A DNA stretch of 64,000 nucleotides from Gammaproteobacteria bacterium Gsub (lineage in GTDB: Bacteria > Pseudomonadota > Gammaproteobacteria > PS1 > Pseudothioglobaceae): the NCBI GenBank assembly GCA_002007405.1, contig JYIN01000003.1, forward strand, positions 1-64,000, given 5' to 3'. How positions within the stretch are numbered: position 1 is the first letter of the stretch; every line of letters starts with the position of its first letter. The position numbers and the translations under genes were made by a program. Positions 1,490 through 19,687 of this stretch are shown here, one piece after another. The notes under the pieces were generated by a model. That model worked only from the letters and a program-made list of their open reading frames with translations. It was not told where the DNA came from and made no database searches.

Positions 1490-1495
1490 TATAAT
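1466..1495 (+). promoter_or_regulatory. Probable sigma-70 promoter of the tRNA gene
   Basis: A perfect -10 hexamer TATAAT lies at 1490-1495. The best -35 candidate is TGATAC at 1466-1471, 18 bases upstream and a weak match. Transcription would begin within a base or two of the mature tRNA 5' end at 1502, leaving little or no leader, which is unusual for a tRNA. Confidence 0.4.
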
Positions 1496-1501
1496 AGTCC
1501 T

Positions 1502-1579
1502 GTCGCGTTCGTCTAGGCTGGCCCAGGACCCCAGAATTTTATTCTGGTAACAAGAGTTCAAATCTCTTACGCGACGCCA
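1502..1579 (+). tRNA. tRNA with Glu-type body and UUU (Lys) anticodon
   Basis: All four arms fold cleanly: acceptor GTCGCGT/ACGCGAC, D stem GTCT/GGAC, anticodon stem CCAGA/TCTGG, T stem AAGAG/CTCTT with loop TTCAAAT, discriminator G and an encoded CCA. The anticodon loop is ATTTTAT, so the anticodon reads UUU, which decodes lysine. The rest resembles bacterial tRNA-Glu: TCGTCTAG after the acceptor, GCCCAGGAC in the D arm, a TAAC variable loop and G73. Bacterial tRNA-Lys normally has a GCTC/GAGC D stem and A73. Relative to E. coli tRNA-Glu the D loop is two bases longer and position 36 is U instead of C. It sits 21 bases before rluD. The gene is structurally intact; its amino acid is uncertain. 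Confidence 0.85.
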
Positions 1580-19613: not shown

Positions 19614-19687
19614 TCGGGACGACAGGATTTGAACCTGTGACCGCCACACCCCCAGCGTGGTGCGCTACCAAACTGCGCTACGCCCCG
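19614..19687 (-). tRNA. tRNA-Pro (anticodon GGG)
   Basis: Acceptor CGGGGCG/CGTCCCG, D arm GCGC/GCGC, anticodon stem CCACG/TGTGG with loop CTGGGGG, T stem ACAGG/CCTGT with loop TTCGAAT and discriminator A. The anticodon GGG reads CCC and CCU. No CCA is encoded (the next bases are TCA), unlike the other three tRNAs in this window. The first 10 bases at its 5' end overlap the 3' end of the moeB/thiF-type gene, whose TAG stop lies inside the acceptor and D-arm junction. Confidence 0.93.

Follow-up and report, generated by a model that had tools for sequence, protein, structure and literature searches.

The tRNA gene at positions 1502-1579 (+) of the window, the 64,000-nucleotide stretch of the Gammaproteobacteria bacterium Gsub genome analyzed here (contig JYIN01000003.1, positions 1 to 64,000), almost certainly belongs to a conserved second lineage of tRNA-Glu genes in the family Pseudothioglobaceae, in which position 36 of the anticodon is free to vary. 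We refer to this gene as Glu2 and to the other tRNA-Glu of the family as Glu1. Our data are best explained if Glu2 is the native gammaproteobacterial tRNA-Glu, kept for a non-decoding function that is most likely the supply of HemA and tetrapyrrole synthesis, while Glu1 carries out translation, and on balance we consider this explanation probable. What can be read from the sequences themselves is a second tRNA lineage with a conserved body, a free position 36 and what appears to be its own promoter box, alongside a tRNA-Glu of a different type.

Glu2 of Gsub is an intact tRNA with a glutamate-type body, the anticodon UUU, G73 and an encoded CCA end. ARAGORN labeled the gene tRNA-Lys(TTT), with the anticodon at gene position 37 (window positions 1538-1540, + strand; alignment column 39), and Rfam model RF00005 matched positions 1502-1576 at 48.5 bits, the gathering threshold of the model being 29. 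The acceptor stem is GUCGCGU/ACGCGAC, the anticodon loop A32-U-UUU-A-U38, the variable loop UAAC and the D arm UCGUCUAG...GCCCAGGAC, which is of the glutamate type; the T stem is fully paired. By its body the gene fits tRNA-Glu in G1-C72, U2-A71, U11-A24, U13.G22, A46, the absence of base 47 (positions 46 and 47 having been assigned by hand), U34, U35 and A37, but carries U36 in place of C36. It shares the anticodon UUU with tRNA-Lys, but has neither A73 nor a Lys-type body, and it is identical to the genome's own tRNA-Lys(UUU) in 47 of 79 alignment columns as against 59 of 78 for its own tRNA-Glu(UUC). These results bear out the initial annotation, which had described an intact tRNA with a lysine anticodon on a glutamate-type D arm, variable loop and discriminator base, and had noted that a Lys-type body was absent. 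The 37 matches above the Rfam cut-off in the Gsub genome also include ordinary genes for tRNA-Lys(UUU), which has A73, and for tRNA-Glu(UUC), which is located beside tRNA-Ala(GGC), so that Glu2 is dispensable for reading either set of codons. Most other tRNA genes of Gsub encode their CCA end, but the tRNA-Pro(GGG) gene at window positions 19614-19687 (-) does not.

Comparison of the locus between relatives showed that window base 1540, which corresponds to tRNA position 36, is C in most orthologues. The nearest orthologues with anticodon UUC are 94-95% identical to Glu2 of Gsub, and the sister species of Gsub has UUC at this locus. The earlier suggestion of a glutamate tRNA whose C36 became U36 was thus borne out, since the orthologues, most of which lie just upstream of rluD, carry UUC. 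In the window an rluD-like pseudouridine synthase gene (PF00849; 1601-2545, +) starts 21 nt after the tRNA, and an rluD-like neighbor was found at most Glu2 loci outside one genus (g4). The commonest gene order in the family is tRNA-Ala(GGC), Glu1, Glu2, often followed by rluD; in Gsub, Glu2 with rluD behind it lies apart from the tRNA-Ala(GGC)-Glu1 pair. A TATAAT at positions 1490-1495 (+), 6 nt before the tRNA, is a probable -10 box; it is absent from the list returned by a generic promoter scan and was recognized by comparing relatives, 51 of 62 of which have a TAWAAT box 6-8 nt upstream of Glu2. Many genomes additionally show, on inspection by eye, a terminator-like stem followed by a T run in the interval from Glu1 to Glu2. 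Glu2 therefore appears, from this conserved -10 box, to have a promoter of its own. On the other side of the gene, near the contig edge, lies a 325-aa open reading frame (68-1045, -) that had no Pfam match.

The anticodon of Glu2 is UUC in most members of the family, UUU in Gsub and four other genomes (G009, G016, G020 and G022), UUA, an ochre anticodon, in two (G002 and G055) and UUG in one (G018). When mapped onto a GluRS protein tree of the family, position 36 changed independently at least six times, to U, A and G, while loop positions 32-35, 37 and 38 showed no change on the same tree. The probability that six loop changes would all fall at position 36 is 8.5e-6, assuming equal rates at the seven loop positions. 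Glu1, by comparison, keeps C36 in all 57 copies. The pattern of a Glu body with a base other than C36 was found in 8 of the 83 family genomes, and in 365 other gammaproteobacterial genomes it gave five matches, all with UUG, which we read as probably ordinary tRNA-Gln. A search of 84,980 species for the exact combination of Glu body and UUU, with a pattern that required a TAA variable loop (and so misses the g4 copies) and with near relatives of Gsub excluded, returned two matches, both of which were chance matches outside tRNA genes and were rejected.

One reading of this variation is that LysRS charges the UUU form with lysine, and likewise GlnRS the UUG form with glutamine, which would make Glu2 of Gsub a harmless extra tRNA-Lys. 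The anticodon UUU belongs to the LysRS determinant set (PMC9976931), no mistranslation would result, and the Lys anticodon is found in five genomes belonging to three lineages. This reading is nevertheless unlikely, as Glu2 carries G73 instead of A73 in a genome that already has an ordinary tRNA-Lys(UUU), the two UUA genomes match no sense amino acid, and the strict retention of the GluRS body determinants would be unexplained. For the glutamine part, Glu2 has neither of the acceptor-stem pairs U1-A72 and G2-C71 that serve as determinants for GlnRS. A plain conversion to lysine charging, one of three outcomes offered by the initial annotation, is likewise disfavored by the independent appearance of UUA and UUG in the same gene.

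A search of the 83 family genomes for Glu2 gave matches in 65, most of them clear orthologues and a few consisting of Glu1 only; 64 sequences were gathered, one of which (G029, a gamma-type tRNA-Glu) was excluded from later counts. In that genome a single gamma-type tRNA-Glu (L086) directly follows tRNA-Ala(GGC), with no Glu1/Glu2 pair there, an arrangement that is perhaps the ancestral state or perhaps a re-replacement. Some near-complete genomes appear to be without Glu2, which indicates that the gene is not indispensable. Mean pairwise identity among Glu2 genes is 91% as compared to 34-35% in their flanks, the stems are paired in 43-44 of the 44 distinct sequences, and compensatory changes occur in the acceptor and anticodon stems at pairs 4-69, 27-43 and 28-42. 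Taken together, these results argue that Glu2 is not decaying. The possibility that Glu2 is a redundant tRNA-Glu in neutral decay, a pseudogene on its way out, would be consistent with the existence of a second tRNA-Glu and with the genomes apparently lacking Glu2, but we give it little probability, since the conserved body, intact stems, compensatory changes and -10 box all stand against it, and decay would spare neither the stems nor loop positions 33-35 and 37, whereas in the loop only position 36 drifts. Several copies in another genus, g5 (L056, L057, L062 and L075), lack the encoded CCA that most of the family has and would need CCA addition.

All of the GluRS determinants listed above for Gsub, that is all except C36, are kept across the Glu2 lineage. 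The A32-U38 combination is present in 44 of 44 distinct Glu2 sequences, as against C32 or U32 in the twelve distinct types of gammaproteobacterial tRNA-Glu sampled. Additionally, Glu2 of the g4 clade and of two further genomes (G030 and G055) has an insertion in the T stem, which folds into a bulge flanked by pairs 51-63 and 52-62. T-stem pairs 49-65 to 51-63 set the affinity for EF-Tu (PMC8219837), and the bulge adjoins these pairs, although this argument against decoding is not directly applicable to the fully paired copy of Gsub.

The two tRNA-Glu genes of the family are of different types. Glu2 has the D arm and variable loop of the type in other gammaproteobacteria, while the D arm and variable loop of Glu1 (UAUCGGUUAGGAC...AAG) are of a type seen outside the class. 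Of 90 genomes sampled from the phylum but not from the class, 12 had the latter type, and we take these 12 to be Alphaproteobacteria following GTDB practice; none of the 29 other gammaproteobacteria of that sample had it. Over the full length, the mean identity of Glu1 was 0.80-0.81 to the outside type versus 0.72-0.73 to the gamma type, and that of Glu2 was 0.67-0.74 to the gamma type versus 0.62-0.69 to the outside type. ALA synthase was present in 11 of the 12 outside genomes with the Glu1 type, and hence their tRNA-Glu need not serve HemA. By sequence type, Glu1 may have been acquired horizontally, possibly from a phage or from bacteria of a different class. The type of the Gsub Glu1 (C1:90436-90507; relatives L032, L044 and others) also occurs in some phages of enterobacteria, with matches of up to 93% over 79% of the length. 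A phage origin of Glu2 was considered and rejected, as Glu2 had no phage match.

HemA was above the cut-off in 76 of the 83 family genomes and ALA synthase was above the family cut-off in none of the 83, indicating that the family makes 5-aminolevulinate (ALA) from Glu-tRNA. We propose that an incoming tRNA-Glu of foreign type, Glu1, took over translation but was unsuited to HemA (glutamyl-tRNA reductase), and that the native Glu2 was retained for this enzyme, which would supply ALA for tetrapyrroles. The determinants of the reductase include U8, the 13-22-46 triple and the 19-56 pair, all of which are kept in Glu2. According to this proposal Glu2 would be expressed and would receive glutamate from the single GluRS, which would recognize the tRNA body together with U34-U35-A37; Glu2 would then be kept away from EF-Tu and the ribosome and used by HemA. 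Being relieved of reading GAA and GAG, it would be free to drift at position 36, giving UUU in Gsub and UUA or UUG elsewhere. The link between Glu2 and HemA draws on metabolism and precedent rather than on physical or genomic association, and we regard a tetrapyrrole role as somewhat more probable than its alternatives combined. The evidence for leaving decoding would agree equally well with a Glu2 that donates glutamate to a different, non-HemA consumer without decoding, or that acts as a tRNA-like regulatory RNA; we consider this improbable, given that HemA is the one known non-translational consumer of Glu-tRNA detected across the family. A search of the 83 genomes for the lantibiotic dehydratase domain (PF04738) gave no match, with the control likewise giving none.

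The weak point of the HemA proposal is the predicted charging of the U36, A36 and G36 forms of Glu2 with glutamate, because C36 is a strong determinant for GluRS in E. coli (PMC9976931, which is also the source of the GluRS determinant list used here). The possibility of a second or anticodon-blind GluRS was rejected, since only two PF00749 proteins are present in the Gsub genome, and from their length and similarity we take these to be a GlnRS and a GluRS. Comparison of GluRS across the family found no residue common only to the genomes with an altered position 36. Arg358 of the Thermus GluRS is the residue that discriminates against tRNA-Gln.

If charged with glutamate and admitted to the ribosome, Glu2 could instead be an active missense or nonsense suppressor that reads Lys, Gln or stop codons, a form of adaptive mistranslation. 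Its body suits GluRS and the anticodon of the Gsub copy would pair with AAA and AAG. However, AAA makes up about 54 per 1000 codons in Gsub, and in the two genomes with UUA in Glu2, UAA terminates 51 of the 76 long ORFs that were sampled (G055) and 49 of the 74 (G002). Since UAA is the main stop in the UUA genomes, efficient ochre suppression by Glu2 is unlikely, and effective suppression of either kind would be ruinous; moreover, three different codon targets arose within one gene lineage. We therefore consider a working suppressor very improbable, and the missense suppression first suggested for this gene is disfavored by the independent UUA and UUG forms in relatives together with the use of UAA as main stop. 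Of the outcomes that the initial annotation had put forward, recruitment to another role is the one that best fits our data, and withdrawal of Glu2 from decoding is, in our view, quite likely. That base 1540 was misread or misassembled can be set aside as barely credible: although the species has a single assembly and our analysis is based on that assembly rather than on reads, a base other than C36 occurs in seven further assemblies, including three with U36 that make up a single clade, and the Gsub assembly, which consists of 14 contigs, is 100% complete.

The closest parallel to Glu2 as a tRNA for HemA is the plastid trnE of Balanophora, whose anticodon is non-canonical or absent and which is presumed to serve tetrapyrrole synthesis only (PMC13128298; also PMC10268348). 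In both, the GluRS body determinants are kept while the anticodon is released (in Glu2 by the changes at position 36 and none elsewhere), and in trnE the GluTR determinants are kept as well. The Pseudothioglobaceae have, in addition, another tRNA-Glu for translation (Glu1(UUC), present in Gsub and beside Glu2 in most relatives) and HemA without an ALA synthase over the cut-off. Balanophora differs in that trnE resides in the plastid of a parasitic plant that has lost nearly all tRNAs and has an aberrant cloverleaf, whereas Glu2 has an intact cloverleaf, is released only at position 36 and exists within a full bacterial tRNA set in which a second tRNA-Glu would translate. Coxiella burnetii, also a gammaproteobacterium and with a reduced genome, has a second tRNA-Glu (tRNA-Glu2, anticodon CUC) proposed to act mainly in heme synthesis, the deletion of which slows growth (PMC5423948). 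In Coxiella, however, it is the additional gene that was acquired, and this gene continues to read a codon for Glu, while in the family of Gsub the native copy appears specialized, the foreign-type copy would translate and the anticodon is no longer that of Glu. Acidithiobacillus ferrooxidans is likewise a chemolithotroph that divides Glu-tRNA between heme and protein synthesis (PMC4284751, PMC9976931), but it does so with two GluRS enzymes, in contrast to Gsub, which has one GluRS plus GlnRS and in which the anticodon of the tRNA drifts. Where tRNAs were gained through mutation of the anticodon among 319 surveyed bacteria, the amino acid stayed the same in all five cases (PMC4041420); Glu2 resembles these in being an existing tRNA gene mutated in the anticodon, but moves to Lys, Gln and ochre instead. 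Our literature search, which covered few subscription papers, yielded no account of anticodon drift in a bacterial tRNA-Glu and no paper combining Thioglobus and tRNA-Glu.

The division of Glu-tRNA between protein and tetrapyrrole synthesis is a long-standing question, and a family in which the two uses are seemingly split over two tRNA genes would be a clean natural experiment on the separate requirements of GluRS, EF-Tu and HemA. We see an even chance that the family swapped its translational tRNA-Glu for the type of ALA-synthase bacteria and turned the native one into a metabolic cofactor RNA outside the code, whose anticodon is in neutral drift among Lys, Gln and ochre forms. If so, Glu2 would be a tRNA outside plastids that left the genetic code yet stays a working substrate, and UUU in Gsub would be a snapshot of the drift at position 36. 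For annotation pipelines the gene is a warning, as from the anticodon alone it is annotated as tRNA-Lys in Gsub and as a suppressor or tRNA-Gln in relatives. A further tRNA-Lys(UUU) sequence of this genome, just past the window end (C4, approximately 65445-65510; L038), is a 3' fragment that lacks the 5' part but matches the ordinary tRNA-Lys of Gsub in its anticodon and T arms, and looks like an integration-site remnant.
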